DNA from: Pseudomonadales bacterium
Lineage (GTDB): Bacteria > Pseudomonadota > Gammaproteobacteria > Pseudomonadales > Azotimanducaceae
DNA length: 53,170 nt
Reading direction: 5' to 3'
NCBI GenBank assembly: GCA_022827905.1
Contig: JAJEIQ010000036.1
Coordinates: 1-53,170, forward strand
Shown: piece after piece, positions 3,108 to 16,655 of the stretch
Layout of the letters: each line of letters starts with the position of its first letter
Numbering within the stretch: the first letter of the stretch is position 1
Translations under genes and position numbers: made by a program
The notes under the pieces: model-generated
What the model saw: the letters and a program-made list of their open reading frames with translations, nothing else
Database searches by the model: none
What the model was told of the DNA's origin: nothing

Positions 3108-3602
3108 ATGTCAAATGAAATGATCATGCTGAAACTCTTGCGGATGCCAACCGTCTGGATGGTACTGCTTGTTCTGTTTGGGGGGCAGGCGCTTGCTGCT
3201 GCGCCGATGCCCTACGATGAGACGGCCGATGCGGCGGCCGCGGTGGCTGCTGCATTGGAAGAGGCCGAAGCGAACGGCAAGCTGTTGTTCATCGAATTCG
3301 GCGCCAACTGGTGCCCGGATTGCCGAGCGTTCGCTGCGGCGACCCAAGCGCCCGAGGCCCGGGCGGTCATCGAGGAGAAGTTCGTGGCCGTTAAGGTGGA
3401 TGTTGGTGATTGGGACAAGCATCCGGAGGTGGTGGCCGCTTGGGGCAACCCGATCGAGGGCGGCATCCCCGCCATCGTGGTCGCCAACACCCAAGGGGAA
3501 GTGTTGTTTTCCACCAAGGCCGGGCAGCTCGCCAAGGCGCGCAGCATGGGGCCGGAGGAATTTGCTGCCTTTTTTGAACACTTGTCGGCCTTGAAACCCT
3601 GA
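3108..3602 (+). CDS. Exported thioredoxin-fold protein
   Basis: A signal peptide or anchor (MLKLLRMPTVWMVLLVLFG..ALAAA) precedes a thioredoxin fold with the redox motif WCPDCR and a cis-Pro-like segment GGIPAIVV. It should act in the periplasm as a thiol reductase or oxidase, similar to the DUF255/thioredoxin_7 group. In-frame ATGs at 3108, 3120 and 3126 are all compatible with the signal peptide, and none has a clear ribosome site. The last nine codons (FEHLSALKP) and the sequence just after them are duplicated at 5108-5154, in front of the intact permease. The ancestral order was therefore probably thioredoxin then permease, about 20 bp apart. Confidence 0.8.
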   Translation: MSNEMIMLKLLRMPTVWMVLLVLFGGQALAAAPMPYDETADAAAAVAAALEEAEANGKLLFIEFGANWCPDCRAFAAATQAPEARAVIEEKFVAVKVDVGDWDKHPEVVAAWGNPIEGGIPAIVVANTQGEVLFSTKAGQLAKARSMGPEEFAAFFEHLSALKP

Positions 3603-3826
3603 CTATTCAGTAGAAGCCCTTGGTCCAAGCAAAGTTCAGCGCCGCCACCGCGCTGGCCGCCATTACCTTTGGCGCCTATCTCGGCTCGGCGGTGCCGATG
3701 CTGCCGCCGAAAGCGAGTGCCACCGTTCTCGCCATTGACCTGACCGCCGCCCACATGGGCACAAGGCGCTGCAGCGGCGGCGTGCAGCGCTGGTTCACGG
3801 GCTTGAAGATCGCGCTGGTCCTGAGC
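3573..3826 (+). repeat. Imperfect direct duplication of trx end and permease part (copy 1)
   Basis: This stretch matches 5108-5634 with scattered mismatches. It covers the final codons of the thioredoxin gene, the short spacer, and part of the amino-acid permease gene. Relative to copy 2 it lacks about 273 bp (5186-5459). The two edges of the deletion share CCACCGC, so a short-homology deletion is likely, and the reading frame is kept. The duplication brackets a segment (about 3827-5107) that carries an unrelated gene and a tRNA-like sequence. Confidence 0.85.
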
Positions 3827-3859
3827 TGCTTTGTCGTCGGGGAACGTCTCGCCCATTAG
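3620..3859 (+). pseudogene. Amino-acid permease fragment with internal deletion
   Basis: From a TTG at 3620 the frame reads VQAKFSAATALAAITFGAY and continues to GLKIALVL, about 70 residues matching the permease at 5155-6510. About 91 residues are missing in frame, and homology is lost after about 3826. Without most membrane helices it cannot be a transporter. Several amino-acid differences from the intact gene (for example PPKAS against PPEAS) show this is not a recent exact copy. The stretch 3603-4061 contains no other intact gene. Confidence 0.8.
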
Positions 3860-3892
3860 CTGCATCAAGTTGAAGTGCTGCGACTTGACCAT
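3827..3892 (-). pseudogene. N-terminal remnant of an unidentified gene, possibly an AMP-binding enzyme
   Basis: On the minus strand an ATG at 3892 is preceded by GAGGACG and opens a frame reading MVKSQHFNLMQLMGETFPDD. The reading then runs into the reversed permease fragment at about 3826. The pattern FNLMQLxxxxFPDD resembles the first residues of acyl-CoA synthetases and other AMP-forming enzymes, but 22 residues cannot establish this. It marks the inner edge of the left duplication. Confidence 0.3.
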
Positions 3893-4061
3893 TCTAACGT
3901 CCTCACGTTGATTTATCCGGTAGCGCAAAGACGAAACCAGGAGGCGCCTAGCTCCCCCTTGTCGACAAAGTATCTCACAGCAACTTCTTTCTGCTTATCT
4001 CTTGTCAATGACGTTTTTTTCGCTCAAAATGGTTGGGCACCCTCAACTACAGGAAGTGAAT

Positions 4062-4841
4062 ATGGAACTGAAGAAATCGCGTAGTCCTGCCTATCCTTCT
4101 TTGAGTCTAGATGCAGCTATCGCTAAGGCGCGGGAAATCTACAATTCCTACAACACAGCCTTTGTGCATCGAGAAGCAGCAGCAGTAGCAATAGGCTACG
4201 CACCTACCAGCGGATCTTCTTTTGGCGCTTTGGCCTCTTTATCTGCATACGGGCTTGTAGATGGGCGTAGGGGAGAAGTCGGTGTAAGCGATCTGGCTAT
4301 ACAGATATTTTTCGCCGAATCGGAGGAGGAGCGTGCCGAGGCTTTGCAAAAGGCCGTCTCTATGCCACCAGCCTTTGGCCTTATCTCTGACAGGTTTGGC
4401 GAACATATTCCTCCTGCTAAAGGCATCGAAGATTTTCTGTGCCGGAATAGATTTACGCCTCCCGCAGCCGCTAAAGCAGCTAAGTCGTATATCACCAGCG
4501 TCAAGTTCGTAACGTCAACAATAGACAATGATAGAAAGGAATCTGCTGCGAAAATGCCGGAGAATGCCGCCTCTAAGGTAGGCGCAAAGCCCGCCCAAAC
4601 GCAGGACGCAGACGAAACAAACACCGAACCTACAGGGGTTTTTCAGGAATGGGCCAGAGGAAGCGCGGGCATTAGCGACAACGACTTCCGTCTTTTAGCG
4701 AAAAATAAACCCAGTTCTGACGAATGGCATGATATTATTGCCTTGCTGGAAGTGCAGGCGAAAATTGCGGAGCGGCGAGAAGAAGCACAAGCGCAGAAGG
4801 GAGAACAGGAAACGAAGTTGATTGAACATATACCAGAGTAA
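4062..4841 (+). CDS. Hypothetical protein with winged-helix-like N-terminal region
   Basis: The 259-aa product is not a family I can name. The ATG at 4062 is preferred over the in-frame ATG at 4002 because AGGAAGTG precedes it. Residues about 10-135 are a compact helical region (AAIAKAREIYNSY..REAAAVAIGY) that reads like a winged-helix or structure-forming module. A polar, low-complexity linker follows (about 150-190), then a charged C-terminal helix rich in E, K and Q (AKIAERREEAQAQKG), probably a coiled coil. Base composition is clearly more A+T-rich than the core genes. Lying between duplicated core-gene ends and next to a tRNA-like sequence, it looks horizontally acquired. Confidence 0.7.
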   Translation: MELKKSRSPAYPSLSLDAAIAKAREIYNSYNTAFVHREAAAVAIGYAPTSGSSFGALASLSAYGLVDGRRGEVGVSDLAIQIFFAESEEERAEALQKAVSMPPAFGLISDRFGEHIPPAKGIEDFLCRNRFTPPAAAKAAKSYITSVKFVTSTIDNDRKESAAKMPENAASKVGAKPAQTQDADETNTEPTGVFQEWARGSAGISDNDFRLLAKNKPSSDEWHDIIALLEVQAKIAERREEAQAQKGEQETKLIEHIPE

Positions 4842-11386: not shown

Positions 11387-12816
11387 CCGCCGGGGAAGCC
11401 GCCGCCATGCCCGTCCTGCCGTCCTTGCGGGACGTGCATGCGGTCGTGGTCGGCGACCTCATGCTGGATCGCTACTGGCAGGGTGAAGCGCGGGGCATCT
11501 CCCCGGAGGCCCCGGTTCCGGTGGTGGCGGTCAGCGACGTGGAGGACCGCCCCGGCGGCGCCGCCAACGTCGCCCTCAACGTCGCTAGCCTCGGCGCACG
11601 CTGCACCTTGCTCGGCTGCATCGGCAAGGATGCCGAAGGGGCAGCGCTCAGGTCCATCCTCGAGGCGGCGGGCGTGTTGTGCGACTTCGTCGAAATCGAC
11701 GGTTGGGCCACGACGCTCAAGTTGCGCGTGGTCAGTCAGCAACAGCAGTTGCTGCGCAACGATTTCGAGTCCCCGGTGCCCGCCGAGGCAGCACGGGCGC
11801 TGGCGGCAAAGGCGAAGGCCCATCTAGCGGATGCCGCCGTGCTGGTAGTGGCCGACTACGACAAGGGCGCCGTGGCGGATCCCGCAGCGCTGATTCAAGC
11901 GGCCAACGCGACCGGCACGGCCAGCGTCGTCGATCCCAAGTTCAAGCCCCTGTCGAGCTATGCCGGCGCCAGCCTGCTGAAGCCGAACCGCCAGGAATTC
12001 ACCGCCGCGGCGGGTCAGTTCGGCGATGTTGATGCGCTGGCTGATTCCGCCCAAGCACTCTGCCGTGCCCACGGGTTTGGTGCCATGGTGGTCACCGCCG
12101 GCGCGGACGGCATGACCGTTGTGGACGGATCGCACACCCATCACCTGCCGGCCCGTCCCGTGGAGGTGTACGACGTCACCGGCGCCGGCGACACCGCCGC
12201 CGCCGTCCTCGGCGTGGCCTTGGGGGCCGGCCTGCCGGTGCTGGACTGCGCCCGTCTGGCCAACGTCGCCGCGTCGTTGGCCGTGGCGAAGTCCGGCACC
12301 GCCGCCGTAAGCGGGCCGGAACTCGCGCTCGCCGCGGCCCAGGATTCGACGGATGGCGGCGTGTTGACCGCCGATCGACTCGCCTTGGCCGTCGCCGCGT
12401 CCCGCGAGACCGGAGAGCGAATCGTCTTCACCAACGGTTGCTTCGACATCCTGCACGCCGGCCACGTCGCCTACCTGCAACAGGCCCGCCAGCTCGGCGA
12501 CCGCCTGATCGTCGCCGTCAACAGCGACGCCTCCGTGGCCCGAATCAAAGGCCCGGAGCGCCCCGTCAACACGCTGGCGCGCCGCATGCAGGTGCTAGCG
12601 GGCTTAAAATCCGTGGACTGGGTGGTCAGCTTCGACGAGGACACCCCGGAACCGCTGCTGGATCGCTTCCGCCCCGACGTGCTGGTCAAGGGCGGCGATT
12701 ACGAACGCCACCAGGTCGTAGGCGCGGATTTCGTAGCCAGCTACGGCGGCGAGGTGCAAGTGCTCGACCGAGTGGAGGACTGCTCAACCACGGCAATCAT
12801 AGACCGACTGGCTTAA
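11383..12816 (+). CDS. hldE: Bifunctional heptose-7-P kinase / heptose-1-P adenylyltransferase
   Basis: The 477-aa length matches HldE (RfaE). The N-terminal half is a PfkB/ribokinase-type kinase with GDLMLDRYWQGEARGISPEA, DRPGGAANVALN and the DVTGAGDTAAAV catalytic motif. The C-terminal half is a nucleotidyltransferase with FTNGCFDILHAGHVAYL and VNSDASVARIKG. It makes ADP-heptose precursors for the lipopolysaccharide inner core, in keeping with waaA 7 kb away. The start is the ATG overlapping the SDR stop; an ATG eight codons on is also possible. The last 15 codons are repeated at 16607-16651. Confidence 0.95.
   Translation: MTAGEAAAMPVLPSLRDVHAVVVGDLMLDRYWQGEARGISPEAPVPVVAVSDVEDRPGGAANVALNVASLGARCTLLGCIGKDAEGAALRSILEAAGVLCDFVEIDGWATTLKLRVVSQQQQLLRNDFESPVPAEAARALAAKAKAHLADAAVLVVADYDKGAVADPAALIQAANATGTASVVDPKFKPLSSYAGASLLKPNRQEFTAAAGQFGDVDALADSAQALCRAHGFGAMVVTAGADGMTVVDGSHTHHLPARPVEVYDVTGAGDTAAAVLGVALGAGLPVLDCARLANVAASLAVAKSGTAAVSGPELALAAAQDSTDGGVLTADRLALAVAASRETGERIVFTNGCFDILHAGHVAYLQQARQLGDRLIVAVNSDASVARIKGPERPVNTLARRMQVLAGLKSVDWVVSFDEDTPEPLLDRFRPDVLVKGGDYERHQVVGADFVASYGGEVQVLDRVEDCSTTAIIDRLA
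12771..12815 (+). repeat. hldE 3'-end direct repeat, left copy
   Basis: These 45 bp are the last codons of intact hldE. They match 16607-16651 at 40 of 45 positions. In codon frame, four of the five differences are synonymous and the fifth is Ile to Leu. The two copies flank the DUF429/CBS-HEPN/AbiE segment. Confidence 0.85.
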
Positions 12817-12867: not shown

Positions 12868-13713
12868 ATGTCCCACATGGATGTCTACGGTATCGACTTC
12901 ACCAGCAGCCCGAGCACGGGAAAGCCGATCAAGGGCTGGCGGTGCGAGTTAGAAGGCGACGTGCTGCAGGTGTTGGAGCCGGTCGTTCTGTGGGAGTTCC
13001 GATGTTTCGAGAAATTCTTGGGCCGTTCGGGTCCTTGGATTGCGGGAATGGACTTCCCTTTCGGTCAGGCCCAACGGCTTGTGAAGGACCTATGCTGGCC
13101 ACCGGCTTGGAAGGACTACGTCTTGCACGTTCATAAGCTTGGGAAGGAGGGGTTCGAAGCCGAGCTCAACGACTATCGCGAGAATCAACCGAAGGGTGAA
13201 AAGGAGCGTCGGAGGCTAACGGACAAGCGCACGGGAGCGTTGGCCCCCAACAAGCTCCACTACCAACCGGTTGGGAAGATGTTCTTCCAAGGGGCACCGA
13301 GGTTGCGGCAGTCCGGTGTCACGATCCCCGGCCTTCAGGTCGGCGACCCTGAACGGCTGGTGGTGGAGGCGTATCCGGGCGTCCTCGCTCGTGGCGTGAC
13401 TAAAGAAAGCTACAAGAACGACCAACAGGAGAAGCAAACGGAAAACCAACGCATGGCTCGCAGGGAAATCGCTGATGCTCTGACGTCAGGAGCACTGCTG
13501 AACCAATACGGCGTGACTGTGTTGGCCGACGACCACTCCGAACTGATTGACGACCCGAAGGGTGACAGCTTGGACGGGCTGCTTTGCGCGGTGCAGGCCG
13601 CTTGGGCTTGGCGAAACCGAAGTTGGTTGTTTGAAGGCGAAGCCGATGGCATTGACCGCCGAGAAGGCTGGATCGCGGACCCGAAAGCTGTCAAACGCTC
13701 GGACACAAGGTAG
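12868..13713 (+). CDS. DUF429 family protein (RNase H-fold-like)
   Basis: The 281-aa protein shows the DUF429 pattern: an early acidic GIDFTSSP (Asp10), AGMDFPFG (about 59-66), a VVEAYPGVL segment and a late DSLDGLLCAVQAAWAW. Acidic residues in these spots resemble an RNase H-like active site, so a nuclease is possible, though none is shown here. AAGGG lies four bases before the ATG. It is the first gene after hldE, inside the segment bounded by the hldE end repeats, and converges on the CBS-HEPN gene. G+C is lower than in hldE. A defence role is inferred from its neighbours only. Confidence 0.75.
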   Translation: MSHMDVYGIDFTSSPSTGKPIKGWRCELEGDVLQVLEPVVLWEFRCFEKFLGRSGPWIAGMDFPFGQAQRLVKDLCWPPAWKDYVLHVHKLGKEGFEAELNDYRENQPKGEKERRRLTDKRTGALAPNKLHYQPVGKMFFQGAPRLRQSGVTIPGLQVGDPERLVVEAYPGVLARGVTKESYKNDQQEKQTENQRMARREIADALTSGALLNQYGVTVLADDHSELIDDPKGDSLDGLLCAVQAAWAWRNRSWLFEGEADGIDRREGWIADPKAVKRSDTR

Positions 13714-13818: not shown

Positions 13819-14670
13819 TCATCCGCCATCGGAATTGCGAATCTCGCTCACGATCCGAAGGATCGCCTCAACCGTGTGCGGCACTTTCTCGGCCTTATCT
13901 TTGGTCCCAGCGAAATCGCTGGCGTGGGCGAGCGAGTCCCGAAGTTTCTTGATGTCCCTAAAGTCCTCGTTCAACTTGGTCTTGCTCCCGTCCAGCACAT
14001 TCAGCTTGACGATGACCCTTGCCTTGTCAGCAAACTCCGTAGCCAGTAACTCGCTAACAAACGTGTCAGCCTCTCGCAGGGAGTCAACTTGCTCCTTGAC
14101 CCTCTCTTGTCGCCCGGGACTTAACAACTTCAGCCATTCCTCTGGACTGTTGGGGCAGATGGCCTCAATCCTTTCCGCCATCATTATCTCAAGCGCCGTG
14201 ACCAATCCGAACAGCGCGGCGCGAACGGGTAGCTTTTGGAGATCCGCGAGGCACACCAAGCCCACGATCTCTCTGCCGGAGACAACCAGCCGGGCTGGTT
14301 GTTGGGCTGCCGAGCAGACGAATTCCAGTATGCTGGCCTCGCCGCCAATAAGCAGATCCTCTGAGAGCGCTTCGAATTCGTCCTCGATCCGCAGTTCCGC
14401 CGGTGGCGTCTTCTCGAACCAACGTTCGGCGTTGTAGAGCCCACAGATTCTTCCGTCCCTTACGACGGGGACAGAGCTGAACTGGTCAACGTTCTTGGCT
14501 ACAAGGGAAGCCACTGCGTCGTCTGGGCGACAGGTCATGAGACTGTCGCGCCCCGTCATGATCAGACGCACGGTCAAACCGGCCTGAACCGCTTCCACTG
14601 TTTTTTGTGCCGTAGCCGAATGGCTGGGCCAAACTGGCGCTTGATGCGAATTCGTTTCCGTTACAGCCAC
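13819..14670 (-). CDS. CBS-domain protein with C-terminal HEPN-like motif
   Basis: The 283-aa product has a CBS pair: residues about 33-85 (LIMTGRDSLMTCRPDDAVA, SVPVVRDGRICGLYN) and about 100-148 (ARLVVSGREIVGLVCLADL). CBS pairs usually sense adenosyl nucleotides. The helical C-terminal part (about 160-275) carries RDSLAH at 244-249, an R-x4-H spacing like the active site of HEPN ribonucleases, in the context DIKKLRDSLAHASDF. The HEPN call rests on that motif alone. It lies 40 bp behind abiEii on the same strand and is likely co-transcribed, which suggests a nucleotide-controlled RNase or a third component of the AbiE module. No other named family fits. Confidence 0.65.
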   Translation of the reverse strand: MAVTETNSHQAPVWPSHSATAQKTVEAVQAGLTVRLIMTGRDSLMTCRPDDAVASLVAKNVDQFSSVPVVRDGRICGLYNAERWFEKTPPAELRIEDEFEALSEDLLIGGEASILEFVCSAAQQPARLVVSGREIVGLVCLADLQKLPVRAALFGLVTALEIMMAERIEAICPNSPEEWLKLLSPGRQERVKEQVDSLREADTFVSELLATEFADKARVIVKLNVLDGSKTKLNEDFRDIKKLRDSLAHASDFAGTKDKAEKVPHTVEAILRIVSEIRNSDGG

Positions 14671-14710
14671 TCTGACTAACCCCCCTTAACGTCAACTGAG
14701 AGCGCACCTC

Positions 14711-15634
14711 TCAGTTCTTTGATTGAAACAGCCGTTTGAGCGCCTCGCGCTGCGCCCTGTGCTTCTGGGGGTCGGACTGCCTTAGCCTCTCCAGATTTAC
14801 CAGCTTCCAGCGGACTGGCGGCAAATCCACGGCTTGGGCCAACCCAATCAGGTCGAAATCGGGCTCGGCATCGTGAAGCGAGAGCAAAAAGGCAGCGACT
14901 TCGCCTGTCAATCGTGAGCGGATGTCTGCCTGCAGACGTTGACTGGTTTCCAGCAGTGCTTCTGGAGATACGCCATCCCGTGTCATGCCCGCGAATTCCG
15001 TATCGTACCCGTCGTGCTCAAGCGCCTTTGCCGGGGCCAGCAACTCGTGCATTGGACGGCGGGAGCCCGCCACATACACCAAGAACACGCGGAATAGGTC
15101 GTCGGTCAGCCCCTCGTTCTCATAAAGCAGTTTGACGTCGAACAGATCGCGCGGGTGCTGGCGGTCAAGCGCCGCAACGAGCTTGCCGGCATATAAGTCC
15201 TCGAAGCTCAGCACATTCATCTCAACAAATCCGAACTGTTCCGTCACGGCCTCGGATGCCACCATGGTACGTGGCGGCAGCACCGTGCCCCGCGCCACTG
15301 GAGACGTTTCAATCTTGATCCGCACCCGACCGCTCGTCACCAAGATTCGAGTGTCGCTGCTCCCTCCGCCGCTCACGCGTCTTGCGGCGACATTTGGGTG
15401 GCGACGGATGATCGAAGTGGCGATGCGGTCGAGCGCGCCATCGATTTCCCCGAGAGACGTAGAGCGGTCACCAATCGGTAGCCAAGTGAGGTCGATATCA
15501 ACCGACAGCCATGGCATGTCCCGGAGGAACAGGTTGATGGCCGTTCCGCCCTTGAGTGCAAAATCAGGCTCTGTTGCAACGTCCGGCAGCACGTCAACCA
15601 ACAGGCGAACCTGCGCGACATAACGATCAATCAT
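14711..15634 (-). CDS. abiEii: AbiEii/AbiGii-family nucleotidyltransferase toxin
   Basis: This is the type IV toxin of the AbiE system, 307 aa from the ATG at 15634. The nucleotidyltransferase core is visible as FALKGGTAINLFLRD (about 30-44) followed by LSVDIDLTWLP (the DxD pair), with SFEDLYAGKLVAALDRQHPRDLFD near 155-175. AbiEii proteins transfer nucleotides, some to tRNA, and block growth during phage infection. The start overlaps the abiEi stop by 8 bp, the normal arrangement for coupled antitoxin-toxin genes. A longer frame up to 15721 lies inside abiEi and is unlikely. Confidence 0.88.
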   Translation of the reverse strand: MIDRYVAQVRLLVDVLPDVATEPDFALKGGTAINLFLRDMPWLSVDIDLTWLPIGDRSTSLGEIDGALDRIATSIIRRHPNVAARRVSGGGSSDTRILVTSGRVRIKIETSPVARGTVLPPRTMVASEAVTEQFGFVEMNVLSFEDLYAGKLVAALDRQHPRDLFDVKLLYENEGLTDDLFRVFLVYVAGSRRPMHELLAPAKALEHDGYDTEFAGMTRDGVSPEALLETSQRLQADIRSRLTGEVAAFLLSLHDAEPDFDLIGLAQAVDLPPVRWKLVNLERLRQSDPQKHRAQREALKRLFQSKN

Positions 15635-16475
15635 CGACGCTTGCGACTGTCGGCTTGTTAGGCAAGAGAAACTTGGGCAAGGAGACGCGATAGGTTGGAT
15701 GGAACTTTCCGCCTGGAACAAGTGCCCGCGGCCCGCTGCCGAAGTTGATCCGCTCGGACTCCAAGTGGTTTCGCCAGCTGTGTTCGTGCCGATCCGCGAA
15801 AACGAAAAAAAGCCGCCGGACCTTGATGCTGCAGCACGCCTCCAAGAGCGTCATGAGCCGCTCAGGCCGCAGGCCCGCCAAGCCTTCGAATACTCGATCG
15901 AGTTCCTCGAAGCTCGCGTTGCCTGGCAGTTCATCGATCGCCTCGAGGATTGCCCGTTCGGGACACGACGCCCTTATCGGCCAGCGCCATACATTCGTGG
16001 TCCACCCACTTTCGTGTTCCAAGGGGTCTGTGTCGTCGACACCCGCTGGATCGCTGCCGAACAAGCCGAGTCGATGCGAAACGATCTGTTCCGTTGTCGG
16101 CAGGCGTTTGAGCCATGAAGGCGTGTCGCCGTAGAGATGAACGCGCCGCGTTCCTGCCAGACGTAGGTAGTGGACATGGCCGAATAGATCTAGAGCGCTT
16201 TCTCCACCTAGATGCACATTGCAGCCCTTAAGGTGTTGCAGCGACAGGAGAACCATTTGCCAAGGCAGTTTGTCCACCATCTGGGGGCCATTCGGCGGCG
16301 GACGGCGGTACACTCCGCGAACGACGCGCTCGATCCATCCCCGAGCCACGTAGTCGTGGATGGACTTCGGGTCGATGCCTCGTGCTTTGAGCCAAGCCGC
16401 ATCCACAACGAATCCTGGCGGTAGTGCATCAAGAAGCGGTTTTAGTCTAGGCGTTCTTAAATGGTTCATAACCAT
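15627..16475 (-). CDS. abiEi: AbiEi-family antitoxin and autorepressor
   Basis: The 282-aa product has an N-terminal helical region (FVVDAAWLKARGIDPKSIHDYVARG..ERVVRGVYRR), the winged helix-turn-helix of AbiEi antitoxins, followed by the AbiEi core (VHLGGESALDLFG; CPERAILEAIDELP). It should counter AbiEii and repress the operon. A 7-bp inverted repeat overlaps its own start codon. Two ATGs are possible (16475 and 16469); the second fits better with a -10 box 9 nt upstream. Its relatives in non-AbiE loci have the same domain, but the adjacent toxin settles the assignment. Confidence 0.85.
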   Translation of the reverse strand: MVMNHLRTPRLKPLLDALPPGFVVDAAWLKARGIDPKSIHDYVARGWIERVVRGVYRRPPPNGPQMVDKLPWQMVLLSLQHLKGCNVHLGGESALDLFGHVHYLRLAGTRRVHLYGDTPSWLKRLPTTEQIVSHRLGLFGSDPAGVDDTDPLEHESGWTTNVWRWPIRASCPERAILEAIDELPGNASFEELDRVFEGLAGLRPERLMTLLEACCSIKVRRLFFVFADRHEHSWRNHLESERINFGSGPRALVPGGKFHPTYRVSLPKFLLPNKPTVASVDD

Positions 16476-16606: not shown

Positions 16607-16655
16607 AGTGGAGGACTGCTCAACTACCGCCATCCTAGACCGTCTGGCTTACTGA
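16607..16655 (+). pseudogene. Orphan hldE 3' end (right copy)
   Basis: In the hldE frame this reads VEDCSTTAILDRLAY followed by TGA, against VEDCSTTAIIDRLA and TAA in the intact gene. Differences are nearly all at third codon positions, as if both ends had evolved under selection for HldE function. Nothing upstream in this copy resembles the rest of hldE. It overlaps the end of the convergent GFA gene by 7 bp, which reveals the original hldE/GFA junction before the islet arrived. Bases 16493-16606 hold nothing else recognisable. Confidence 0.8.

Follow-up and report, generated by a model that had tools for sequence, protein, structure and literature searches.

Results

Genes and boundaries of the islet

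Within the window, by which we mean the whole stretch of 53,170 nucleotides analysed here (contig JAJEIQ010000036.1 of a Pseudomonadales bacterium), a gene for a protein with a predicted CBS pair and HEPN-type C-terminus stands in a small islet together with three other genes. The features are as follows.

12771..12815 (+), left copy of a 45-nt direct repeat, formed by the 3′ end of hldE (hldE stop codon 12814-12816)
12868..13713 (+), DUF429-like gene, convergent with the CBS-HEPN gene (PF04250, E 0.013; PADLOC PDC-S44, E 3.2e-4)
13819..14670 (-), CBS-HEPN gene, 283 aa, with a putative CBS pair at about residues 30-143, a putative HEPN-type helical domain at 147-282 and the motif R244-x4-H249
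14711..15634 (-), abiEii, nucleotidyltransferase toxin of type IV toxin-antitoxin systems (PF08843, E 8.9e-38; PADLOC AbiEii, E 4.4e-113)
15627..16475 (-), abiEi, antitoxin (Pfam PF11459, E 5e-36; PF17194, E 1.4e-20)
16607..16651 (+), right copy of the 45-nt direct repeat, 89% identical to the left copy and att-like

The CBS-HEPN ORF begins with a GTG codon, upstream of which lies the run AAGGGGGG, and is separated from abiEii, on the same strand, by 40 bp (14671-14710). The ATG of abiEii occupies 15632-15634, and abiEi and abiEii overlap by 8 bp. These coordinates bear out a preliminary description of this DNA, which had placed the ORF 40 bp behind abiEii in the same direction, and its naming of the neighbours as AbiEi and AbiEii agrees with the Pfam and PADLOC assignments. 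The PF04250 match of the DUF429-like protein lies below the profile cut-off and is weak.

The two repeat copies bracket all four genes (DUF429-like, CBS-HEPN, abiEii and abiEi). They differ at five positions, four of which fall, as read by eye, at third positions of hldE codons, as if the right or the left copy had been derived from another hldE allele. Repetition of the 3′ end of a gene is a usual mark of integration into that end; no integrase is encoded among the four islet genes. The gene carrying the left copy has PfkB and CTP_transf_like domains, and we take it to be hldE. GC content is 57-59% in the islet genes, 69% in hldE and 63% over the window. At some distance from the islet, the lowest-GC stretch of the window lies at 3500-4500 (about 49-55%), near a 279-aa ORF at 4002-4838.

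To the right of the right repeat copy come a GFA gene and an aldo/keto reductase gene, and at islet-free sites in four of the nine genus genomes (G057, G076, G109 and G130) an aldo/keto reductase gene follows hldE after 15 to 290 bp. The same hldE site in a sister species (G033) holds abiEi, abiEii and the CBS-HEPN gene, with a PDDEXK_4 nuclease gene (L014 3087-4409, between hldE and the CBS-HEPN gene) replacing the DUF429-like gene. Taken together, these arrangements give the 3′ end of hldE the look of a minor hotspot for defence genes.

Distribution and architecture of the relatives

CBS-HEPN genes are present in nine of 206 family genomes (G000, G033, G039, G078, G093, G096, G124, G132 and G169); a raw tally of 20 had included CBS-only matches, which were left out. 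Further members without an HD domain occur in Maritalea mediterranea (L003), G762, G1142, G473, G1292, G1155 and G1302, giving 16 HD-less bacterial loci in total, with L002, the same gene as that of G033, counted once. Matches from the class, phylum and family searches that lie in the CBS half were not regarded as family members, and 82 such CBS-only loci (L012, L040-L051, L056-L082, L090-L100, L104-L121 and L126-L138) provided the neighbour controls.

Fourteen matches of the class-level search (L026-L039) extend into the HEPN half. Thirteen of these are long ORFs of 439-683 aa, all with an HD_4 domain before the CBS-HEPN core, and L035 (from G473) is the only one of the fourteen that is HD-less. 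The HD_4 domain, which we assume to be SpoT/MESH1-like, may act on the nucleotide sensed by the CBS pair of the same protein. Proteins with HD_4, CBS and HEPN parts (L026-L034 and L036-L039, n = 13) are spread over several families of the class.

More distant CBS-HEPN forms are found on haloarchaeal plasmids, where most are annotated as 'CBS domain-containing protein'. In six of eight haloarchaeal records (L023, L024 and L145-L148) the CBS-HEPN gene is accompanied by a divergent 118-aa ORF that is alike from record to record; the divergent ORF of L204 is about as long, and L203 differs. ADP-ribosylglycohydrolase genes lie near the CBS-HEPN gene in two haloarchaeal records. Searches of phage records with the window and L035 proteins, and of IMG/VR viral contigs with the window protein and profile A2, found no relatives, and a blastn search of E. 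coli genomes with two related genes gave no match, which at the sensitivity of blastn says little.

A tree of 26 rows was built from 14 of the 16 HD-less members, eight of the 13 HD forms and four haloarchaeal forms. G096 and G169 count among the 16 loci but do not enter the tree or the alignments, the gene being broken by a frameshift in G096 and truncated at a contig end in G169; A2 does not include L038, the C-terminal part of which seems to be out of frame.

The CBS half and its candidate pocket

Searched alone against Pfam and NCBIfam, the window protein gave no CBS or HEPN match. The CBS pair assigned to its N-terminus in the preliminary description is nevertheless supported through the profiles of its relatives, and appears to be a diverged one. 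Profile A2, of 23 rows, matched PDB CBS domains at E 4.9e-8, a score helped by those rows that have canonical Pfam CBS matches of their own; the window-clade profile A1 by itself gave a weak match (E 0.0051). Pfam CBS was found in five of ten relatives in set A5 (best E 4e-7). The full-length structural model is poor in the CBS half, and the weak matches of its fold search were CBS domains (best E 0.014). Within the CBS2 stretch GLVCLAD, residue D143 hardly varies in A2, which is compatible with the predicted binding of an adenosine nucleotide.

The position two residues after the invariant R150 separates branches of the family. It is Ala152 in the window protein and Ala in all nine window-clade rows, Trp in 8/8 HD forms, and Tyr both in 4/4 haloarchaeal forms and in all three members of the branch formed by G473, G1142 and G1292; G1155 has Ala and G1302 Ile.

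The HEPN half

The arginine and histidine reported earlier at residues 244 and 249 are there, in the sequence R-D-S-L-A-H. One R-x4-H within some 130 residues might be a coincidence; the invariance of the motif across rows, judged from the alignments, is not. Conservation of the two residues among homologues, on which the preliminary description had made its HEPN reading depend, was found throughout: both are invariant in the eight rows of A1 (the window protein and seven near relatives) and in 23/23 rows of A2, and the motif takes the form R[ND]x3H, with a polar residue after the arginine, in all 26 rows of the tree set. The invariant residues of A2 are R150, F154, E161, W179, L243, R244, A248 and H249.

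Profile comparisons support a HEPN-type helical C-terminus with this conserved motif, as had been proposed. Aligned by hhalign with nine HEPN_Swt1 members taken from a family search, the HEPN part of all rows gave a probability of 93.7% (E 1.9e-7), and the RN..AH motifs fell in register; reversed controls reached 3.1-6.4%. The HD-type branch scored 67.2% and the window clade alone 29.8% (E 5.6e-4) against the same members, and the HEPN part of the window clade matched the HD-type branch (eight HD rows and three HD-less) at 99.3%. Comparison with four PF05168 HEPN members gave no match (0.3-0.6%); Swt1 against the same four also scored 0.3%, so the PF05168 comparison cannot see across HEPN families. 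Pfam HEPN_Swt1 was found, below its cut-off, in 12 of the 13 HD-fused relatives (E 1.2e-4 to 0.032), the exception being L038. Weak matches to HEPN_RiboL-PSP (2/10 A5 members, best E 0.0088) and HEPN_Apea (1/10, best E 0.014) were also seen. PADLOC assigned PDC-M34B to ten of 23 family members and, weakly, Csx1/Csm6 to four (best E 9.5e-5), and another of its Csx1/Csm6 (CARF+HEPN) profiles matched residues 148-277 of the window protein at a weak E of 0.023.

A model of residues 144-283, made from three sequences, is all helix (mean pLDDT 82.9), and the R-x4-H motif lies where a long helix ends. Foldseek against the PDB returned nothing significant for this model, the best match being a FAT domain (E 0.83). 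Among the best 50 rows were eight HEPN/HepT-type toxin chains (E 1.4 to 3.6, TM 0.24-0.41), including 7bxo, which we take to be HepT-MntA; the other rows were other helical bundles, FAT and talin among them. The putative HEPN identity of the C-terminus thus rests on motif and profile evidence and not on the fold search.

Association with AbiE

The protein had been proposed to be an extra component of AbiE, with co-occurrence across genomes as the expected sign. A survey of neighbourhoods did not find such co-occurrence beyond one genus. AbiE adjoins two of the 16 HD-less loci, those of the window and of the sister species G033, which belong to one genus. AbiEii relatives (E up to 1e-15) occur in 22 of the 206 family genomes, with CBS-HEPN beside them in two; in the other 20 no CBS-HEPN gene lies on the AbiEii contig, and two of these, G093 and G096, carry one on a different contig. 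Among 72,556 plasmid records, AbiEii had 193 matches and the window CBS-HEPN protein two, both haloarchaeal, so that at most two of the 193 AbiEii plasmid records could hold both. A general AbiE subunit is rejected on these counts.

What stands of the proposal is narrower. Two species, with CBS-HEPN proteins that are 71% identical, share the order abiEi-abiEii-CBS-HEPN; the gene that follows is DUF429-like in one and codes for a PDDEXK_4 nuclease in the other. An operon-level link with AbiE within the genus is therefore possible. One reading of this kind would make the protein a dedicated third component of this AbiE subtype, with AbiEii modifying the HEPN RNase or controlling it, in the manner of the adenylylation of HepT by MntA. 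The kept gene order would fit this, as would the fact that AbiEii and MntA are, as we understand them, both nucleotidyltransferases. We nevertheless consider it improbable, given the locus, genome and plasmid counts above and the sequence after the motif (RDSLAHASDF), which lacks the tyrosine two residues after the histidine that we assume to mark HepT-type motifs.

Association with type I restriction genes

Type I restriction genes, identified by phmmer and Pfam, adjoin five of the 16 HD-less loci. L003, G124, G762 and G1155 have hsdM, hsdS and hsdR beside the CBS-HEPN gene, and G093 has a specificity gene and an N6_Mtase piece. The CBS-HEPN gene shares the strand of the adjoining restriction gene in four of the five and is divergent in G124. 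Its stop codon overlaps the hsdM start in G762, and its start codon the stop of an hsdS-like gene in G093, both as ATGA. G093 also has Abi_2 and GmrSD_N neighbours, and a phage integrase lies near the gene in G473. Inside the type I operon of Maritalea (L003), a putative 8-oxoguanine glycosylase-like gene (OGG, PF21790; 6992-7801) directly precedes the CBS-HEPN gene.

In a uniform tblastn test over 1.5 kb, hsd matches were found at 4/16 HD-less loci, compared with 0/13 HD-CBS-HEPN and 0/82 CBS-only loci (Fisher p 5.0e-4 for HD-less against CBS-only, the loci being partly related); some of the positive loci were themselves the source of the Hsd seeds. In the tree L003 and G093 are sisters and the restriction label needs at least two changes, so the five restriction-linked loci are not five independent events. 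All neighbour counts are lower bounds, as the sequence to one side of the gene is shorter than 0.8 kb in G093, G096, G169, G1292 and G1302 and amounts to 2.0 kb in the sister species.

These data bear on the possibility that the protein is a guard of co-encoded defence machinery, silenced by the complex encoded next to it and set free once a phage inactivates that complex, in the way that PrrC is held silent by the EcoprrI type Ic enzyme. The type I neighbours, the ATGA overlaps and the contrast with both comparison groups speak for such a guard. However, the islet of the window contains no restriction genes, the seeds and the kinship of the loci qualify the counts, and co-location does not show contact, and we regard a guard as rather unlikely here.

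A defence setting is also not universal. At nine of the 16 HD-less loci neither AbiE nor Hsd seeds found a match, and four of these (G039, G078, G132 and G1142) have at least 7.3 kb on both sides; among the 13 HD forms, none has an AbiE or Hsd match within 1.5 kb. Such loci would suit a nucleotide-responsive host regulator of RNA stability rather than a defence RNase, a role proposed for CBS-HEPN and HD-CBS-HEPN proteins in 2013 (PMC3710099). Against this, the HD-less branch is patchy, as its presence in so few genomes of the family illustrates, several members lie beside restriction, Abi_2, GmrSD or integrase genes, and DS-11, a protein of the same make-up, defends against phage according to PMC13092281. 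A host regulator is in our judgement unlikely.

Discussion

The preliminary description knew of no named system with this arrangement, which was wrong. CBS-HEPN and HD-CBS-HEPN fusions were described by Anantharaman et al. in 2013 (PMC3710099), and DS-11 (DefensePredictor) is a one-protein CBS-HEPN system that defends against phage (PMC13092281). Defence by DS-11 needs the CBS tyrosine Y157 as well as the HEPN catalytic residues, mutations in either half abolishing it; Y157 is predicted to touch adenine, and the CBS part is proposed to bind an adenine derivative (PMC13092281). The window protein resembles DS-11 in architecture, as a single CBS-HEPN protein, but DS-11 is a one-gene system and the gene in the window follows abiEi-abiEii. 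With the HEPN proteins of the Abi2/Swt1 group that are fused to CBS or HD domains (alr3009 and a Pelobacter example; PMC3710099) it shares the CBS-HEPN core and the conserved arginine and histidine, and differs from them in having no HD_4 domain and only 19-23% identity.

Other likenesses are of plan. Csm6/Csx1 (CARF-HEPN) also join a nucleotide sensor to a HEPN RNase; their sensor is CARF and that of the window protein CBS, and we assume that the latter acts independently of CRISPR. PrrC with EcoprrI (hsdMSR) offers a parallel to the five loci described, where a predicted HEPN RNase is encoded next to type I operons or within them, but the sensor of PrrC is an ABC ATPase and that of the window protein a CBS pair. 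AbiE itself is a two-gene system, and the CBS-HEPN gene, adjacent on the same strand in two species, is absent beside it in 20 of the 22 family genomes that have AbiEii.

The observed domain profiles, conserved motif, gene arrangement and islet boundaries are best explained, with a probability of roughly 0.6, if the protein is a ligand-gated ribonuclease from the Swt1/Abi2 group of HEPN proteins and serves as an autonomous abortive-infection effector behind abiEi-abiEii. The earlier suggestion of a nucleotide-gated RNase is supported as a prediction, since the protein combines a CBS pair with a HEPN-type C-terminus whose R-x4-H is conserved. By analogy with the HEPN family, the domain would dimerise and cut RNA through R244 and H249. 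The CBS pair would bind an adenine-type nucleotide, as proposed for DS-11, and either hold the RNase off or switch it on, the level of this nucleotide changing during phage infection. The effector lies behind abiEi-abiEii in this genus and is perhaps co-transcribed with them, as some of its relatives lie in type I operons, and one islet would thereby carry several lines of defence together.

The signal may not be the same in all branches. DS-11 depends on Tyr157, and we infer that position 152, Trp or Tyr in three other branches and Ala in the window protein, is the place of that tyrosine. If so, the pocket of the window clade would differ, and its Ala form may be new within the literature searched. 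That HD-less CBS-HEPN genes recur next to type I restriction operons or within them may likewise be new within that literature. Restriction systems have been linked to at least 16 HEPN clades in PMC3710099, and the CBS-HEPN clade could be among these; in the available portions of PMC3710099, PMC13092281, PMC6563490, PMC12988326 and PMC10435456 we found no mention of CBS-HEPN in type I operons, and a literature search that combined HEPN, type I restriction-modification and anticodon nuclease gave no papers.

The protein type is thus already in print, and its reading as a new AbiE subunit is corrected. If the effector reading is right, a published CBS-HEPN defence type would be tied to type I restriction and AbiE operons, and sets of loci would be gained in which to ask what nucleotide controls the CBS pair and whether the RNase, like PrrC, stands guard over its neighbours. 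We tentatively suggest, as a possibility that is more speculative than the effector reading itself, that the HD-less proteins of this clade are a metabolite-gated RNase that serves as a portable reserve and is added to other defence operons, to type I restriction operons in several lineages and to AbiE in this genus. Were this true, they would be a small-molecule-sensing counterpart of PrrC whose pocket, with Ala for Trp/Tyr, differs from that of the HD-fused forms, the haloarchaeal forms and perhaps DS-11, and would respond to a different signal.
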